DNA of 40,756 bases from a virus. Below, piece by piece: positions 13,714-39,152 of the stretch. Under the pieces are notes generated by a model. The model made no database searches, had not been told where the DNA came from, and saw only the letters and a program-made list of their open reading frames with translations. The stretch covers positions 1 through 40,756 of IMG/VR virus record IMGVR_UViG_3300036791_000915; one strand, given 5' to 3'. The first letter of the stretch is position 1. Each line of letters begins with the position of its first letter. Position numbers and translations under genes: made by a program.

Positions 13714-13888
13714 TGTCCTCCTCCAGGAGCCGGCGCACCGCGACGACGATCTCGTTGACCCGGCCAGGGTTGACGCCCATCAAGCTCGCCACCTTATGCT
13801 GATCGATCCCGTCGACCAGAACGGCCACGACGACCCGCAATTTCTCCTGCGCGGAGAGCGCGGTCTTCCGCTCGGCGAAGTCCTTCAT
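13706..13888 (-). CDS. Small helix-turn-helix protein
   Basis: A 60-residue protein starting at ATG 13888, overlapping the stop of the HNH gene upstream. The segment DQHKVASLMGVNPGRVNEIVVAV has the spacing of a helix-turn-helix of the replication-initiator/sigma-like kind: a helix, Gly at the turn, and a recognition helix. It overlaps the exported-protein gene by eight bases. Probably a small DNA-binding regulator or adaptor in the early operon. Confidence 0.65.
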   Translation of the reverse strand: MKDFAERKTALSAQEKLRVVVAVLVDGIDQHKVASLMGVNPGRVNEIVVAVRRLLEEDNG

Positions 13889-14226
13889 CGGTTGGTCTCC
13901 TGCTTCAGGCCGTACCGCCTGGCGATCTCCGTCGGGCCGGCGCCGATCACCCGGTGGCGTCCCTCCAGGCGCTTGGCGCGAGCGATCTCGGCGACGTCGC
14001 GCCTGGTCTTTCTGTCGTGGCATTTTATGCACAGCAATTTTCCGTCTTCGGCGCTGAGCGGTTCGCGCTCGCCCATGCGAACGCCCTCGGGGACGATATG
14101 GTCGATCTCATAGTCGGCGCGCGACCGGCATCCGGCGCCGCAGCCCTCGCAGTAAACGCGACCGCCTTCGGTGGCGCGCTCGACAATGGCGCGCTCGACG
14201 GCGCGCGGGAACGGGACGCGGATCAT
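13885..14226 (-). CDS. HNH endonuclease (early operon)
   Basis: A 113-residue HNH nuclease of the classical zinc-stabilised type: CEGCGAGC, then YEIDHIVPE with the catalytic Asp-His pair, then GKLLCIKCHDRKTRRD with the third motif. Unlike the late-operon HNH genes it has no target-recognition extension, and its tail IARRYGLKQE resembles those of small phage HNH proteins found beside recombination genes, where they may assist packaging or recombination. Overlaps both neighbours by four bases. Confidence 0.85.
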   Translation of the reverse strand: MIRVPFPRAVERAIVERATEGGRVYCEGCGAGCRSRADYEIDHIVPEGVRMGEREPLSAEDGKLLCIKCHDRKTRRDVAEIARAKRLEGRHRVIGAGPTEIARRYGLKQETNR

Positions 14227-15037: not shown

Positions 15038-15379
15038 TTACGCCATCCTGTGGTGGTCGGCGTGATGCTTCCGACAAAGCCATTCGACTTTGAGCGGCTG
15101 GCCATAATCGGGATGGTGCATCTCGGCGAAGCCGCCGCAGACGCGACAGGGTTCGCGCGTCAACTTGCCGCGCTTCAGATATTGGTGGGCGTAGGACCGG
15201 CAATTATCTTTGCGTCTTTGCTCGACAGTGGGCCGGTGCGTTTTTCGCCACTGGCGCATGTACTCCCGACTGTAGGCGGCGCGTTTCGCCTTCCGCTCAC
15301 GCGTGTCTTCCGGCCCTATTTCACGTGAAATAGGCAGCGGCTTCCATGATCCTTGCGCTGTGAACATAAAACATTGCAT
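15038..15379 (-). CDS. HNH/zinc-type small endonuclease-like protein
   Basis: About 113 residues. C-terminal PCRVCGG, MHHPDY and WLCRKHHADHH form a compact Cys2-His zinc/HNH-like site; the middle is strongly basic (KAKRAAYSREYMRQWRKTHRP). ATG at 15379 is chosen because GAGG lies at a usable distance; TTG at 15388 and ATG at 15367 are alternatives. The YMR-type basic helix recurs in the small zinc proteins at 23559 and 24486. DNA cleavage or binding is likely. Confidence 0.7.
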   Translation of the reverse strand: MQCFMFTAQGSWKPLPISREIGPEDTRERKAKRAAYSREYMRQWRKTHRPTVEQRRKDNCRSYAHQYLKRGKLTREPCRVCGGFAEMHHPDYGQPLKVEWLCRKHHADHHRMA

Positions 15380-15422
15380 GGGCGTCAAGCCTCGTCAGTG
15401 GGCGTCAGCCAGGGTTAAGGGG

Positions 15423-16928: not shown

Positions 16929-16982
16929 TGTTAAACGTTTTACCAGATTGCAGCAGGGACAATGGTTGTTAAATGTTTAACA
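16929..16982. promoter_or_regulatory. Two operator-like palindromes before the early operon
   Basis: TGTTAAACGTTTTACC at 16929-16944 and the perfect 7+2+7 palindrome TGTTAAATGTTTAACA at 16967-16982, 38 bases apart centre to centre. Both belong to the family found at 24256-24355 beside the XRE repressor. They lie in the divergent region between ERF (-) and the HTH gene (+), where a repressor could block both promoters. Confidence 0.75.
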
Positions 16983-16984
16983 AG

Positions 16985-17005
16985 GTGTTGGCATGTTGCC
17001 AACAC
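16985..17005. promoter_or_regulatory. 21-base palindrome, copy 3 (divergent early region)
   Basis: Perfect arms GTGTTGGC and GCCAACAC around the spacer ATGTT. It starts two bases after the second TGTTAAA-type operator, so two different palindromic sites abut in this control region. It is 82 bases upstream of the HTH gene start. Confidence 0.75.
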
Positions 17006-17086
17006 TTTGGCCCGTCGCGCCGTCATCTTGTGGATAGCGCAACTATTCGCTTGACGCGCGGGCGCACTGCCCTCAATTATAGTCAG

Positions 17087-17398
17087 ATGCCAAGAGCCCC
17101 CTATAAAGCCCCGCCTCGCGGACCACGACTCGATGAGTTGATCGCGCTCAGAAAGGCGCGCCATCCGAACCTCAAGACCAGCGGTTTCGCCCATGTCCTC
17201 GGCGTCACCAGGCTGCACCTGACCTCGATCGAGTCCGGCCGTCGCAAGCCCTCGATGCAATTGGCGCTGCGCTGGCTGACGGCGCTCGGCCCAGGGGCGC
17301 GAATGAGCATGTTCGGGCCGCTGCCGCTGGTCGAAGAGCGCATTCGCGCCATCAAGCATCTCCAACGCAATTTGCCGGAAATCTGGAAAGCAGCCTGA
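17087..17398 (+). CDS. XRE-like helix-turn-helix regulator
   Basis: A 103-residue protein. RLDELIALRKARHP, then SGFAHVLGVTRLHLTSIESGRRKPS has the spacing of a Cro/CI-type helix-turn-helix, with the IESGRRKPS loop typical of XRE proteins. It faces the early operon across a region holding two kinds of palindromes and so is a candidate Cro- or activator-like partner of the repressor at 23866. ATG at 17087 begins the first recognisable segment; no clear ribosome site. TTGACG at 17051 and TATAGT at 17078 are too far apart for a standard promoter. Confidence 0.72.
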   Translation: MPRAPYKAPPRGPRLDELIALRKARHPNLKTSGFAHVLGVTRLHLTSIESGRRKPSMQLALRWLTALGPGARMSMFGPLPLVEERIRAIKHLQRNLPEIWKAA

Positions 17399-17400
17399 GG

Positions 17401-17847
17401 ATGGGCGTCGTGCGGCGACAGGAAAATATTGCGCCGTGTCAAGACATCGAGCCCGCTCGTCCAGATCTGTTCAGCCGCCGGCCGCGCGACGGCAATGCCG
17501 AGGCCCGGCGTCAGGCGGCGATTGTCGATTATGTCCGCTGGGTCGCGCCTGACGTCGTCATCTGGGCGGTCCCCAATGGAGGCTGGCGCACCAAGGCCGA
17601 GGCTGCGAGGCTCAAGTGGGTTGGCGTTCTGGCCGGCGTGCTCGATCTTTCCTTGGCGCTGCCCAACGGCCGCTCGGCCTATTGGGAGACCAAGACCGCC
17701 CATGGCCGCCTGAGCAGCGACCAGTTCGCCTTCATCAGGCGGCTTGAGGGCATCGGCCATACCTGGGCAGTGGTGCGCGGAATTGAAGACGCGCGCTTCG
17801 AACTCGCCCGCCTCGGCGTCAAGACGAAGGAGGTGCTAATGAAGTGA
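17401..17847 (+). CDS. VRR-NUC domain nuclease
   Basis: A 148-residue PD-(D/E)XK-type nuclease. The conserved core runs from VPNGGWRT (57-64) and GVLAGVLDLSLAL with D82, to YWETKTAHGRLSSDQ with E96, K98 and Q108, the expected metal-binding and catalytic residues. Stand-alone phage VRR-NUC proteins cut branched or flap DNA, probably Holliday-junction-like structures. Two bases separate it from the HTH gene. A strong hairpin directly follows its stop. Confidence 0.85.
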   Translation: MGVVRRQENIAPCQDIEPARPDLFSRRPRDGNAEARRQAAIVDYVRWVAPDVVIWAVPNGGWRTKAEAARLKWVGVLAGVLDLSLALPNGRSAYWETKTAHGRLSSDQFAFIRRLEGIGHTWAVVRGIEDARFELARLGVKTKEVLMK

Positions 17848-17848
17848 A

Positions 17849-17882
17849 CCTGGGCGGCGCGTATGGCCGAACGCCGCCCAGG
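17849..17882 (+). terminator. Strong hairpin after the VRR-NUC gene
   Basis: CCTGGGCGGCG (17849-17859) and CGCCGCCCAGG (17872-17882) form an 11-base perfect GC-rich stem with a 12-base loop, one base after the TGA. There is no T-run, so it may act as a Rho-dependent or transcript-protecting structure rather than a classic terminator. Confidence 0.6.
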
Positions 17883-17960
17883 CCCAGATGGTGAGGAAGC
17901 TTTAGGCAGCACAACCTCTCCCCGGCCATAGCAGATATTCGTGAAAACTCCAAGACGCCT

Positions 17961-18346
17961 GTTCCTGGAGAACGAAGACATGCAGGTTTCGTCCCCTTGC
18001 ACGGCAGGGCCTACGGGTTGTGCTCAAGTACTCGGCGAAACCCCAGCGCATGGTGCGCCAATCAGTCGCCGTCGGTTTGTGAGACAGCGGGGCGATCTGG
18101 TCAACAAGTCGGTACCGTGGGGCCTCTGCAACCGACAGCGTGGTGCGAAATCCCGGAGCGCCAGGCAGAGCGGGGGGCGGCAATCCCTCCGAAACAGTAG
18201 CGGGAAACCTTGGTGGCGTAACCCGGCTGGCCAAGGGCTCGAATGCAGGGAAATGCAGTCGGGCAGCGCGACAACCCTGGCTAACCGCCGGGGCTATGTC
18301 GTGCTCTGCCCGCAGCAGGGGAGTTTCGGTGGCCGTTGGCCACCGA
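17961..18346 (+). ncRNA. Candidate large structured RNA (about 390 bases)
   Basis: The 552 bases between 17848 and 18399 hold no credible gene, but many stems: GTTC/GAAC (17961/17970), GCGCA/TGCGC (18046/18054), GTCGGTT/AACCGAC (18071/18130), CCTTGG/CCAAGG near 18208, a compound stem CGGGCAG/CTGCCCG (18260/18306) enclosing CGACA/TGTCG and CCC/GGG, and a perfect 9-base stem TCGGTGGCC/GGCCACCGA (18326/18338). Short GAAA and GGAAA loops occur between. It is flanked by genes on the + strand. It does not match tRNA, tmRNA, RNase P RNA or 6S as I know them. Function unknown; folding support is by eye only. Confidence 0.4.
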
Positions 18347-18399
18347 TCTGGTGGCTAGTGATCAGAGTCGCGCGAGGCGAAAATATAGGAACCCAGAAG

Positions 18400-18603
18400 A
18401 TGTTTTTGAACATTCCGAAGACGGTTCTCGATCGCATGACCAAGGACGAGGTGCGGCGCCTGTTGGCTGAGATGAGAGATGAACTGGAGGTCTTCGAGGG
18501 CTGGAACGAGGACCGGCGTGAGATCGTTGCGGCGGCGCCGCCATGGCAGGAGTCGCCGCCCCCGAAGTCATTGGACGATTACGGCAAGATGCGCGTGCGG
18601 TGA
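18400..18603 (+). CDS. Small acidic helical protein, unknown function
   Basis: A 67-residue protein with AGGA upstream of the ATG. It is made of helices (PKTVLDRMTKDEVRRLLAEMRDEL) with an acidic face and a Pro-rich tail. A much longer frame continues upstream through the structured non-coding stretch, but its composition is not protein-like, so the start at 18400 is preferred. Overlaps the next gene at TGATG. Confidence 0.6.
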   Translation: MFLNIPKTVLDRMTKDEVRRLLAEMRDELEVFEGWNEDRREIVAAAPPWQESPPPKSLDDYGKMRVR

Positions 18604-18845: not shown

Positions 18846-19151
18846 ATGCCTGAGGTCCGCTCGGTCCTGCGCGATGGCGCATTCGAGGCGATCGTGGAGA
18901 CCGCGAGCATGGCCGAGAGCTACGTGCGTTCATTGTCGGAGGCGGCGTTTCGCGGCGACCAGGCGACCGTCCGCGGCCACCTCGAGCAATTGCGCCTGTG
19001 CTGCATTGCGATGATCCAGACATACAACGTTTATTTGGAGGGAAAGACGGATGATGAAAACGCCCGACGAGCGGACGGTCATGGAAACTCTGGCGCACCT
19101 CATCCGCCTCAAAGAGCGCTACGTGCGTCAGCCGGTGAGATTGAGCGCTGA
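18846..19151 (+). CDS. Small helical protein, unknown function
   Basis: A 101-residue protein four bases after the zinc gene. Residues 1-70 are clearly helical and amphipathic (EAIVETASMAESYVRSLSEAAFRG, VRGHLEQLRLCCIAMIQTYNVY). The last 30 residues are less protein-like and overlap the next gene in another frame by about 100 bases, so a true end closer to 19050 with a frameshift cannot be excluded. No family recognised. Confidence 0.55.
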   Translation: MPEVRSVLRDGAFEAIVETASMAESYVRSLSEAAFRGDQATVRGHLEQLRLCCIAMIQTYNVYLEGKTDDENARRADGHGNSGAPHPPQRALRASAGEIER

Positions 19152-19257
19152 GGCCCTGAGATCGATGGGGAGGCGAAGGGATGGTCAAGACGTGGCCGGA
19201 ACCAAATCTTCGAACGACAACGGTCAGGATCAGCGACCCGGCGATGGAGTGGCATGA
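19051..19257 (+). CDS. Small protein overlapping both neighbours, unknown function
   Basis: A 68-residue product with a strong GGAGGG ribosome site and two ATG codons in a row. The first half is helical and basic (VMETLAHLIRLKERYVRQPVRL); the second half is hydrophilic. It overlaps the previous gene by about 100 bases and the next by 77, each in a different frame, a dense arrangement of three staggered genes. Confidence 0.55.
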   Translation: MMKTPDERTVMETLAHLIRLKERYVRQPVRLSAEALRSMGRRRDGQDVAGTKSSNDNGQDQRPGDGVA

Positions 19258-19444
19258 GGTCGATCTGAATGACCTGCTGGGCTGCTGCAAGCGCGAACTG
19301 GCCTTCCGTCAGCGCTGTTATCCGCGCTGGATCGAAAAGGGGACGATCAGTCCGGCGAAGGCGGCGAGGGAGATCGAGCAGATGGGCTCGGTCTGCGACT
19401 TTCTCATTCACTGTGTGTTCAAGGCTGTCACGCGGGCGCGCTAA
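19181..19444 (+). CDS. Small phage protein with RYPRW-type helix motif
   Basis: An 87-residue protein with a GGAGG site. The segment ELAFRQRCYPRWIEKGTISPAKAAREIEQM is a pattern I recall from many small alphaproteobacterial phage proteins (a helix of about 12, then YPRWV, a Gly turn, then a second helix ending in EI..M). Function unknown. It ends the rightward group; the next genes are on the opposite strand and converge on it. Confidence 0.7.
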   Translation: MVKTWPEPNLRTTTVRISDPAMEWHEVDLNDLLGCCKRELAFRQRCYPRWIEKGTISPAKAAREIEQMGSVCDFLIHCVFKAVTRAR

Positions 19445-28375: not shown

Positions 28376-28745
28376 ATGAAGGACTTGACTGACCTCGACG
28401 CCTGTCGTCTGCGCGACAAGCTGGTCCTGGAAAGATACGGCTGGTTCGGCGACCATACCCGCGGGCTGCTTCGAACTGCCCTGTCCGAGGACCGGCGTCT
28501 TTCTCATCTGCGTCGCCTCGACCGGCCATGGCTGGGACCATGTCTCGGTCTCGCTGAAGCACAGGACGCCCAACTGGGCCGAGATGGAGCACGTGAAGCG
28601 GGCCTTCTTCAGAGACGACGAGACGGCGATGCAGTTGCACGTGCCGCCGACTGACCATATCAACGCGCATCCCTGCTGCCTGCACCTCTGGGCGCCCAAC
28701 GACGGCCGTCAGATCCCGAGGCCGCCAGGGGAGTTCGTCGGGTGA
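28376..28745 (+). pseudogene. DUF7694-like phage protein split by a +1 frameshift
   Basis: The first frame gives MKDLTDLDACRLRDKLVLER, then YGWFGDHTRG, to about 28465. The matching continuation is one base later: CFELPCPRTGVFLICVASTG, HGWDHVSVSL, NWAEMEHVKRAFFRDDETAM and HINAHPCCLHLW, ending at TGA 28743-28745. The second part is the hallmark of a common phage family (I recall DUF7694). One extra C near 28466 restores continuity if removed. It overlaps the TerL start by four bases. Either a disrupted gene, a sequencing error or, less likely, frameshifting. Confidence 0.8.
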
Positions 28746-30070
28746 CCTTCGTCAACGACAACGCCGCCGATGCGCCGCTCACCATCCCCTACCGGCCGCG
28801 GCGGCACTTCATTGCCCTGCACGCATCTGAAAAGCGGCTGATGTTCGTCTGCGCCCATAGAAGAGCCGGCAAGACGGTCGCCTTGGCCAACCATCTGATC
28901 AGGGCGGCCTATCTCAACGGCCGGCAATGGCCGCCGCCCCGCTATGGTTATGTCGGTCCAAGTTTTGAGCAAGCCAAAGATCTGGTCTGGAGTTATCTCA
29001 AGCAGTACACCGCGCCGATCGACGGCGTGCAGTTCCGGGAAGCGGAGTTGTCGATTGTGCTGCCGCACAATGGCGCGATCATCAAGCTGTACGGCGGCAT
29101 GAGCGCCTATGAACGGATGAGGGGCATGTATTTCGACGGGATTGTGCTCGACGAATATCCTCTTTTGCAGAAGACGGTGTTTTCGACTGTGGTCCGACCT
29201 TGCCTGGCCGACTATCATGGTTTCGCCATTGTGTCGGGGACCTCGAATGGCGATGACCATTTCAACGCGCTGAGATTGAGAGCGATGGAGGACGAGAGGT
29301 GGGATGTTTTTCTGATCCCGCTCTCCGAGACGGCTGAGGAGGCGCTCTCCTACTCCGAGGCGCGCGAATTGACCCAGGACATGAGCGCCGACGAGTACGC
29401 GCGCGAGATGGAGTGCTCGTTCGACGCTCCGGTCGAGGGCGCCTATTTCGCCGAGGGGCTGAACGCCTTGAGCCTGCAAGGCCGGGTCTGCCCGGTGCCG
29501 GCCGACCTCAGCCAGCCGGTGGTGACCGCCTGGGACCTCGGGGTGCACGATTATTGCAGCATCTGGTGGTGGCAGACGATCGGCAAGGAACTGCACTTTA
29601 TCGATTATGCCATGGGCGTCGGCCATGGGCTCGACCACTGGGCCCGGGTCTTGCGGGAGAAGAAGGCCGAAGGCGGCTACGACTATCGCTGCCACCTCCT
29701 GCCGCACGACATCGAGGCGCGCGAGATCTCGTCCGGGAGGTCACGGCGAGCCACCTTGGACGAATTGATCCCGAAGAACGAGCCGGTCATTACCGTGCCG
29801 CGGATCAAGATGAAGGATGACGCGATCCAGGCCGCCCGCAGCCTCCTGGGCTCGAGCTGGTTCGACGAGAAGCGATGCAAGACCGGCCTGGCGATGCTGC
29901 GCGGCTACCATAAGAGCGCGATGGGCCAGCCGGTGCATGGACCGGGCCCGCACAGCCACGGCGCCGACGCCTTCCAGACCGCCGCGGTTGGGTTTCATCT
30001 CGTCTCGGGCCTGTCGGCCTCGATGCTGAGGCGCGGCGCGATCAGAAGGCGGATCAGGGGGCTGATTTGA
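28742..30070 (+). CDS. terL: Terminase large subunit
   Basis: A 442-residue DNA-packaging motor. Walker A is CAHRRAGKTV (37-46), Walker B is GIVLDEYPL (133-141) with the catalytic acidic pair, and the coupling motif SGTS follows (165-168). The nuclease domain has TAWDLGVHD with D265 and the C-terminal HGADAF with D409, the expected metal ligands of the RNase-H-like fold. Length is normal. It begins with GTG overlapping the TGA of the frameshifted gene. Confidence 0.95.
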   Translation: MTFVNDNAADAPLTIPYRPRRHFIALHASEKRLMFVCAHRRAGKTVALANHLIRAAYLNGRQWPPPRYGYVGPSFEQAKDLVWSYLKQYTAPIDGVQFREAELSIVLPHNGAIIKLYGGMSAYERMRGMYFDGIVLDEYPLLQKTVFSTVVRPCLADYHGFAIVSGTSNGDDHFNALRLRAMEDERWDVFLIPLSETAEEALSYSEARELTQDMSADEYAREMECSFDAPVEGAYFAEGLNALSLQGRVCPVPADLSQPVVTAWDLGVHDYCSIWWWQTIGKELHFIDYAMGVGHGLDHWARVLREKKAEGGYDYRCHLLPHDIEAREISSGRSRRATLDELIPKNEPVITVPRIKMKDDAIQAARSLLGSSWFDEKRCKTGLAMLRGYHKSAMGQPVHGPGPHSHGADAFQTAAVGFHLVSGLSASMLRRGAIRRRIRGLI

Positions 30071-38443: not shown

Positions 38444-38670
38444 GCATCGCGGGTTTGTTGTTGGGCTTGATCAACATCGGGCTCGTCATCGTGATCCTGG
38501 TCCTGATCGGCGCGGTGGTCCGCTGGGTTCTCGCTTTGCTCCAGTGGCCAGTCCCGTCGGATATCGAGCGGCTCTATCTCGCGGTGGTGGCGCTCGTTGC
38601 TCTTTATATGCTGGTCGCCCTGCTGTTCGGTCTGCCGACGGTTCGTATCATCGGGAGTGAACTGAAATGA
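38440..38670 (+). CDS. Second small membrane protein of the lysis cassette
   Basis: A 76-residue protein, overlapping the holin candidate by four bases. Two membrane spans (about 4-30 and 45-66) and a WPVPSDIERLY linker match Thivi_2564-like small phage/bacterial membrane proteins. It may be an antiholin, a second holin or a spanin-like helper. The last 67 bases are antisense to the end of the gene at 38604-39152. Confidence 0.65.
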   Translation: MSIAGLLLGLINIGLVIVILVLIGAVVRWVLALLQWPVPSDIERLYLAVVALVALYMLVALLFGLPTVRIIGSELK

Positions 38671-39152
38671 CGCCGATTGTTGGCCTGTTCCTTCCATGTC
38701 GCCCAGCGGCAATTGCCGGGCTCGTAGTTGCCGCTGTTGTCTGGCCAGCGGTCGAGGGTGGTTCCGGCTGGGCGTTCGCCCATGTCGGCGAGGAAATTGT
38801 CAAAGGACAGCCAGCGATCACAGACGGTAACCCCGCGCTGGCTATACCACTTGGCTTGGCGGGCCTTGGGGTTGAAAGCCCGTTGCTTCATGGTCGCCCA
38901 CGACCAATAGGTTGGCGAGATTTTCCCCCACCGCGTGCGCGCATGGCCGTGACGCACCCGCCTCACAGCCTCGTCATGCTGACAGCCACAACTGACCGTA
39001 TGCCTGCGCCTGAGGTTGTTGCCGATGACGATGACTGTTTTTCCGCAGTCGCAAAGGCACCTCCAGCGGGCGTTGGTGGCCTGCATGTAGGCGAAATTTT
39101 CAACGGTCAGGCGGCCGAAACGTTGCCCTGTGAGATCGCGGAAGACGCCCAT
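38604..39152 (-). CDS. Reverse-strand endonuclease-like phage protein (mobile type)
   Basis: A 182-residue protein of a widespread phage type: DLTGQRFGRLTV start, a zinc segment CLCDCGKTV and VSCGCQHDE, then HGHARTRWG, YWSWATMKQRAFNP, YSQRGVTVCDRWLSFDNFLADMGERP, and DRWPDNSGNYEPGNCRWAT, with the conserved D...N.R pattern thought to belong to homing-like nucleases. It is the only - strand gene inside the late operon. Start ATG at 39152 shares its CATG with the ATG of the + strand gene at 39151. Confidence 0.8.
   Translation of the reverse strand: MGVFRDLTGQRFGRLTVENFAYMQATNARWRCLCDCGKTVIVIGNNLRRRHTVSCGCQHDEAVRRVRHGHARTRWGKISPTYWSWATMKQRAFNPKARQAKWYSQRGVTVCDRWLSFDNFLADMGERPAGTTLDRWPDNSGNYEPGNCRWATWKEQANNRRHFSSLPMIRTVGRPNSRATSI

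Follow-up and report, generated by a model that had tools for sequence, protein, structure and literature searches.

Evidence for a folded RNA of uncultivated soil phages in which exchangeable cores follow a constant 5' domain

A gene-free stretch in a phage genome appears to encode a real folded RNA that a group of uncultivated soil phages has in common, a conclusion that sequence comparison supports and in which transcription is presumed. Homologues of the stretch lie at the same locus in related phages, their stems carry compensating base changes, no coding signal is found, cores have been replaced, and one syntenic phage lacks the element. An earlier reading, made from the letters of this DNA alone (the sequence-only reading), had proposed an undescribed RNA element here, and the compensating changes, together with the failure of any known family to match, support that proposal. 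The two outcomes that it had named as refuting it were looked for and not found: covariation is present among the homologues, and none of them keeps a conserved intact frame. It missed the modularity of the element, in which a constant 5' domain is followed by exchangeable cores.

The phage and the locus

The window, that is, the whole stretch of DNA analysed, comprises the 40,756 bases of an IMG/VR virus record, which encodes an integrase, a portal and a major head protein, as well as ERF and YqaJ recombination genes. By TerL identity (53%; terminase gene at 28742-30070), the closest named relative is Ochrobactrum phage vB_OspP_OH. No tRNA or tmRNA was found in the window with ARAGORN. HNH-like ORFs recognised by eye are scattered through the genome, at 931-1557 and, on the minus strand, at 13885-14226, 15038-15388 and 38604-39152. 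The element lies in a gap of 552 bases that opens after a VRR-NUC-like gene (stop codon at 17845-17847) and closes at an ORF starting at 18400, and its surroundings are as follows.

16973-17398, plus strand: HTH_3 regulator (Pfam HTH_3, E 6.8e-5), which opens the rightward operon
17401-17847, plus strand: upstream gene, 148 aa, VRR-NUC-like or Holliday-junction-resolvase-like nuclease (Pfam VRR_NUC, E 3.6e-4 and 21.0 bits, under the curated cut-off of 23.8; PHROGs resolvase match, 1.8e-7)
18400-18603, plus strand: short ORF immediately downstream of the element, with no homologue found among the related loci compared
19181-19444, plus strand: downstream marker gene of the locus, present in 18 related records

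The rightward gene run is short, stopping at about 19444, after which minus-strand ORFs follow. No obvious promoter or intrinsic terminator was found flanking the element, which could thus simply belong to the operon mRNA.

Stems and fold in the window

The stems named in the sequence-only reading are all present, namely the 11-bp GC stem (hp1), the perfect 9-bp stem and the compound hairpin, here measured at 53 nt. The features of the element are listed below.

17848-17975, plus strand: constant 5' domain of three hairpins, found in every family member (covariance model R1)
17849-17882, plus strand: hp1, 11-bp GC-rich stem CCTGGGCGGCG/CGCCGCCCAGG with the conserved loop CGUAUGGCCGAA
17888-17929, plus strand: hp2, from per-sequence folds
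17929-17935, plus strand: conserved single-stranded linker UAGCAGA (UUUAACAGAA in relatives), from near-invariant alignment columns
17947-17970, plus strand: hp3, 10-nt arms, from the covariation count
17985-18042, plus strand: P4 domain, GGUUUCG...CGAAACC, from sequence comparison
18060-18313, plus strand: type A core, ornate and multi-helix, from a four-sequence consensus
18208-18236, plus strand: covarying core hairpin CCUUGG/CCAAGG, from type A comparison
18260-18312, plus strand: long compound hairpin CGGGCAGCGCGACA/UGUCGUGCUCUGCCCG, 53 nt
18326-18346, plus strand: 3' perfect 9-bp hairpin, TCGGTGGCC-GTT-GGCCACCGA as DNA and UCGGUGGCC-GUU-GGCCACCGA as RNA

Folded as a single sequence, 17848-18399 gave a z of -2.1 against dinucleotide shuffles, 2 of 100 of which folded equally well; the 5' 130 nt gave a z of -1.6 and the remainder -2.9. 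The fold of the window by itself is thus only modestly better than chance, and the case for a structured RNA depends on its relatives. The hairpin at 18326-18346, which has a similar counterpart in type B members, lacks a U-run and so, judged by the consensus applied, does not qualify as an intrinsic terminator. A CGCGCG-like motif at 18367-18374 recurs just 5' of the downstream gene in several core types.

Homologues and synteny

Related contigs were gathered through the terminase (80 of 86 loci kept) and through ERF (12 loci). When 50 of the related records were searched at the DNA level, the element clearly matched about 15, the best being G040 with 77% identity over about 490 bases. A degenerate pattern of the first hairpin was found in 24 IMG/VR contigs and in none of the species genomes searched, 84,980 from bacteria and archaea. 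Model R1 of the 5' domain, built from 22 sequences including the window, added the distant members G006, G013 and G051 (E 1e-6) and G035 (E 2e-4), all four of which lie outside the model; strong scores on the 22 training sequences, such as that of 17848-17975 in the window (cmsearch, 95.6 bits, E 1.6e-22), are to be expected, since the model was made from them. Altogether, about 30 IMG/VR contigs from related phages carry the element, and 26 distinct sequences from them were compared.

In all members the element has the stop codon of an ORF upstream and the same set of small genes downstream. Sixteen of the 18 records with the marker gene carry it; G022 (locus L032) has the same gene order without the element, and G002 begins too near the marker gene for its presence to be judged. 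The element is thus widespread in this phage group without being present throughout. The upstream ORFs are of several unrelated types across members, and the ORF directly downstream also varies. In L096-L100, L102, L105, L107, L109, L110, L126, L128, L132 and L139 unrelated upstream proteins share an FAREVLK-like C-terminal end (nucleotides GGGAGGTGCTGAAGTAA), which looks like a recombination joint; a similar end is seen in L032, which is without the RNA. No TerL relative was confirmed in the bacterial and archaeal genomes that were searched for the hairpin, so that no host or prophage was found, and Ochrobactrum phage OH, the nearest named phage, gave no match to the 5' domain model.

The constant 5' domain

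We found the three-hairpin fold of the 5' domain in nearly all members. The z of the domain ranged from -1.6 to -6.0 across 26 of 26 members and hp1 and hp3 covary, which bears out the dense secondary structure described earlier. Covariation in these two stems was counted on 22 sequences with 500 shuffles and was strong: 89.0% of the cells were paired (81.4 +/- 0.9% when shuffled), 27 cells were changed on both sides (9.9 +/- 2.4 when shuffled), and the covariation score was 0.182 against 0.083 +/- 0.011, with 0 of 500 shuffles as high. Because the shuffle control leaves relatedness in, the spread of the changes matters, as does the slid control, in which moving the arms by 1-3 columns brought the score to 0.061 or less. 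In hp1, 94.2% of the cells were paired and three pairs had changes on both sides; in hp3, the respective figures were 83.2% and five (22 sequences each). Further hp1 pairs become A-U in L152 and L153, which belong to a 24-sequence set and lie outside the 22 counted.

The second hairpin rests on inspection by eye and per-sequence folds, and stands outside the statistical count, its arms not aligning column by column. Most relatives have AGGYUGG..GAGG paired with CCUC..CCAGCCU, whereas the window has a weaker AUGG/CCAU; the hp2 stem is a perfect 12 bp in L156, and it is 11 bp long in L157. G-U pairs are frequent in hp2 and hp3 on the plus strand, which, with the direction of the operon, favours that strand as the RNA, although one hp1 pair is C-A in 10 of 24 sequences and would favour the other.

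In most members only a few bases separate hp1 from the stop codon of the upstream gene, and in the window hp1 begins directly after it. Its loop (17860-17871 in the window) has the consensus U(A/U)UGGCCGA, with a self-complementary GGCC in nearly all members (GGAC in L153). The hp3 tetraloop is GCCU in the window and mostly GNRA (GCAA, GCGA, GUAA or GUGA) in relatives. The most conserved loop nucleotides are thus not especially purine-rich, contrary to the conserved-looking purine loops of the sequence-only reading. The UUUGGCCGAA form of the hp1 loop is self-complementary if G-U is allowed and could permit loop-loop dimers; kissing of hp1 loops through GGCC is suggestive, and covariation gives it no support. 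A possible pseudoknot, in which the hp1 loop would pair with the linker (in the window, UAUGGCC/GGCCAUA), was noticed only by eye and only in a few members.

Exchangeable cores

At least four unrelated cores, A (that of the window), B, C and D, occur behind the 5' domain, in addition to a short form, E. Types were assigned by sequence similarity and by eye, with the following members.

Type A: window, L096, L097, L142
Type B: L098-L101, L107, L110, L126 and the diverged L156
Type C: L102, L105, L106, L108, L128, L132, L138, L153
Type D: L109, L139, L152
Type E (short): L104, L133, perhaps L157

Pairs of loci with closely similar 5' domains and unmatched cores show that one core has taken the place of another downstream of a common 5' domain, at a joint that directly follows hp3. 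For example, L107 (type B) and L139 (type D) share 89% identity over nt 1-139 and have no match thereafter; L142 (A) and L105 (C) share 91% over nt 1-118, and L132 (C) and L100 (B) 88% over the first 111 nt, each again with no match beyond.

The structures of the A, B and D cores rest on four, seven and three aligned sequences, respectively, and no consensus fold was found for type C. The type A core is common to its four members only, and its pattern was found in three IMG/VR contigs, all at the same locus. Its consensus has 80 pairs, of which, in the four sequences, 10 show double changes and 22 have at least one non-pairing cell; counterparts of the hairpin at 18208-18236 in relatives read CUUCAGC/GCUGAAG, CUUCGGC/GCCGAGG and CCUUGGC/GUCAAGG. 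The P4 domain is common to the window, L096 and type B, but is missing in L097 and L142; one of its pairings is CUUG/CAAG in the window and CAUG/CAUG in most type B members. A tRNA-like T-loop (UUCGA) in P4 was considered and rejected, as it is not conserved. Within IMG/VR, the type B core pattern was likewise found only at the same locus, and a type B helix, CUAGCAG/CUGCUAG, becomes CUAGCGG/CCGCUGG in the diverged L156. Type D has a long-range helix of 9-12 bp whose strands differ between L139/L109 and L152 (UGUCUGCCCAGC/GUUGGGCAGAUG against UGGUGGAUC/GAUCCACUG) with the pairing kept. In types B and E the 3' part holds a G-rich motif, GGGGGUAAGGGGG, which L104, L133, L157 and type B members have in common.

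Two features were seen downstream of type C elements. A palindrome, TATAGTGCACTATACCG or near variants of it, is present in L102, L132, L138, L153 and L106 and is perhaps an operator. L102 and L132 have an ORF of about 113 aa that contains the HNH-like motif CFVCG...LHHRTY...CHEL and for which Pfam gave no match at E 0.05.

Comparison with known RNAs

The element matches no known RNA family. A search of the window against Rfam 15 found no family at the gathering threshold, and a permissive search with the element and ten homologous loci returned chance-level matches only (E 0.46-2.7), the best being Betaproteobacteria-1 at E 0.46. Searches with blastn found no match to the element or to type B, D and C loci among sequenced phages, nor to the element among plasmids. 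A group I or group II intron was rejected (no Rfam match, flanking ORFs complete), as was an IscB/TnpB guide RNA of the HEARO/omegaRNA kind (no RNA match, neighbouring ORFs without such domains).

Judging from literature searches, GOLLD and ROOL would be the RNAs most alike in kind, and for a mechanism in cis the closest would be put RNA. GOLLD RNAs are complex, exceed 800 nt in many members, are encoded by phages or prophages, have no known function, and have one end conserved and the other less so (PMC12286853). The element resembles them in its large size, complexity, phage encoding and single conserved end; however, the conserved region of GOLLD is 3', whereas the constant part of the element is its 5' end. 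GOLLD is often found near tRNA islands, whereas the window has no tRNA, and the element differs further in its whole-core replacement and in having no match to the GOLLD Rfam model. ROOL, 659 nt and pseudoknotted in the example studied, is also phage or prophage encoded and was non-essential in one strain (PMC12286853). The element is likewise a large RNA of phage origin, but it lacks an Rfam match and tRNA genes in the window, and its cores are exchanged in modular fashion. The likeness to large phage RNAs drawn in the sequence-only reading therefore holds for size and complexity, but not for family membership. For RNA-only assemblies of the GOLLD and ROOL kind, the feature to compare would be a homo-oligomeric cage; on this point, the element shows a self-complementary GGCC in the hp1 loop of nearly all members, with GGAC in L153.

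The put RNA of HK022 consists of about 70 nt in two stem-loops, acts without a dedicated protein, and is found downstream of early promoters, either immediately or at a distance of about 270 nt (PMC9378689). Compared by architecture only, put places, and the element would place, hairpins in an early phage transcript without a protein gene of their own, but the 5' domain of the element is about 130 nt long with three hairpins, lies about 870 nt into the operon if the promoter is where we place it, and is followed by a structured core of about 400 nt.

In many relatives, a (C)CUUUAACA linker followed by a GNRA-loop hairpin resembles the lambda nut or rrn boxA-boxB arrangement. The boxA consensus is GCTCTTTAACA, from which the best sites in the members differ at 1 to 5 of 11 positions, that of the window at 5. 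A boxA/nut site is not supported: no boxA-like sequence is present in the window, L106 or L152, and the motif is not wholly single-stranded, its 5' portion being paired within hp2.

Proposed function and alternatives

We tentatively favour the reading that the element is a plus-strand gene for a structured noncoding RNA, acting mainly in trans as an accessory RNA and made up of a constant 5' domain and an exchangeable core. The RNA would be read within the rightward operon that starts with the HTH gene at 16973, and its ends, made by cleavage or termination, would lie near hp1 and near the 3' hairpins. The 5' domain may help the RNA to fold, keep it stable or let a common partner recognise it, with the GGCCGA loop, the UA-N-CA linker and the GNRA loop as candidate conserved features, and the core may carry a specific activity against a variable target, for example a host defence or a competing phage. 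A trans-acting RNA is favoured by the exchange of whole cores, the variation of the neighbours and the one phage without the element; core exchange and dispensability argue for a variable target, and the variation of the upstream and immediate downstream genes argues against regulation of one particular gene. A bolder form, which we consider unlikely as it stands, is a modular class of phage RNA in which one 5' platform carries cassette-like unrelated cores as RNA effectors of counter-defence or immunity, the target differing by core type.

Large structured phage RNAs are few and their functions open, and this family adds cores that differ in fold and are swapped behind a conserved RNA domain. 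Because such cores have been exchanged in closely related phages, they are natural swap experiments, in which the constant part can be studied apart from the variable part, and phages that have the RNA can be set against phages that lack it.

The chief alternative is an antiterminator acting in cis, because the constant part consists of hairpins after a stop codon in an operon; in most members hp1 lies close to the stop codon of the gene before it, a placement that intercistronic cis elements also have, and this speaks against the trans-acting reading. In this explanation, which is possible although we rate it below an RNA acting in trans, the 5' domain would bind the elongating polymerase, as HK022 put RNA does, and make it resist Rho-dependent or intrinsic termination across the long, structured and untranslated stretch and the genes after it, and the cores would be cargo. 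The Bacillus EAR element is a comparable polymerase-binding antitermination RNA. The 5' domain is constant whatever flanks it up- or downstream, its hairpins stand mid-operon, Rho would probably have access to some 550 nt of untranslated RNA, and the two stem-loops of the roughly 70-nt put RNA need no dedicated protein (PMC9378689). However, the gene run ends soon after the element, at about 19444, L032 has the same operon without it, large exchanged cores would be unnecessary for antitermination, and the boxA version was tested and failed.

The sharp boundaries of core exchange could also reflect a recombination or homing hot spot, in which conserved DNA (the GGGAGGTGCTGAAGTAA joint and hp1) would guide exchange and the cores would be remains of mobile ribozymes or introns. 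The AREVLK-like end common to unrelated upstream ORFs and the HNH-like ORFs after the element in some type C members (L102 and L132) are in keeping with this, but no ORF is interrupted, Rfam gave no group I or II intron match, and the HNH-like ORF is without a Pfam match. Moreover, the compensating changes indicate selection on structure, and hp2 and hp3 are rich in G-U on the plus strand, as expected for RNA. Such a hot spot accounts for the exchange, not for the covariation, and we regard it as improbable.

We give still less weight to RNA-based superinfection immunity or incompatibility, in which core types would be immunity groups. P4 CI RNA and P1 c4 provide RNA-based immunity and are short antisense-type RNAs. 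Close relatives do carry exchangeable core types, an HTH gene is nearby and the phage encodes an integrase, but the cores are far more elaborate than those short RNAs.

Coding potential

The sequence-only reading had found no protein-like frame. There is in fact an open stretch of 153 codons (17941-18399) that shares its reading frame with the ORF at 18400, but the claim stands in that the element is not coding: mismatches between the window and L096, its nearest relative, fall almost evenly on the three codon positions (34/31/27), most of the indels are not multiples of three (gaps of 1, 3, 4 and 5 nt), and no frame stays open in all members of the family. A gene for a small protein, or a fold arising by chance in GC-rich DNA, for which the 153-codon frame and the single-sequence z of only -2.1 might speak, is thus scarcely credible in the face of even codon-position mismatches, frame-breaking gaps, unconserved frames and covariation. 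Between the window and L096, the element has 77% DNA identity and other nearby stretches 69-75%, while the upstream HTH proteins are 50% identical and the products of the downstream ORF at 18846 are 37% identical.
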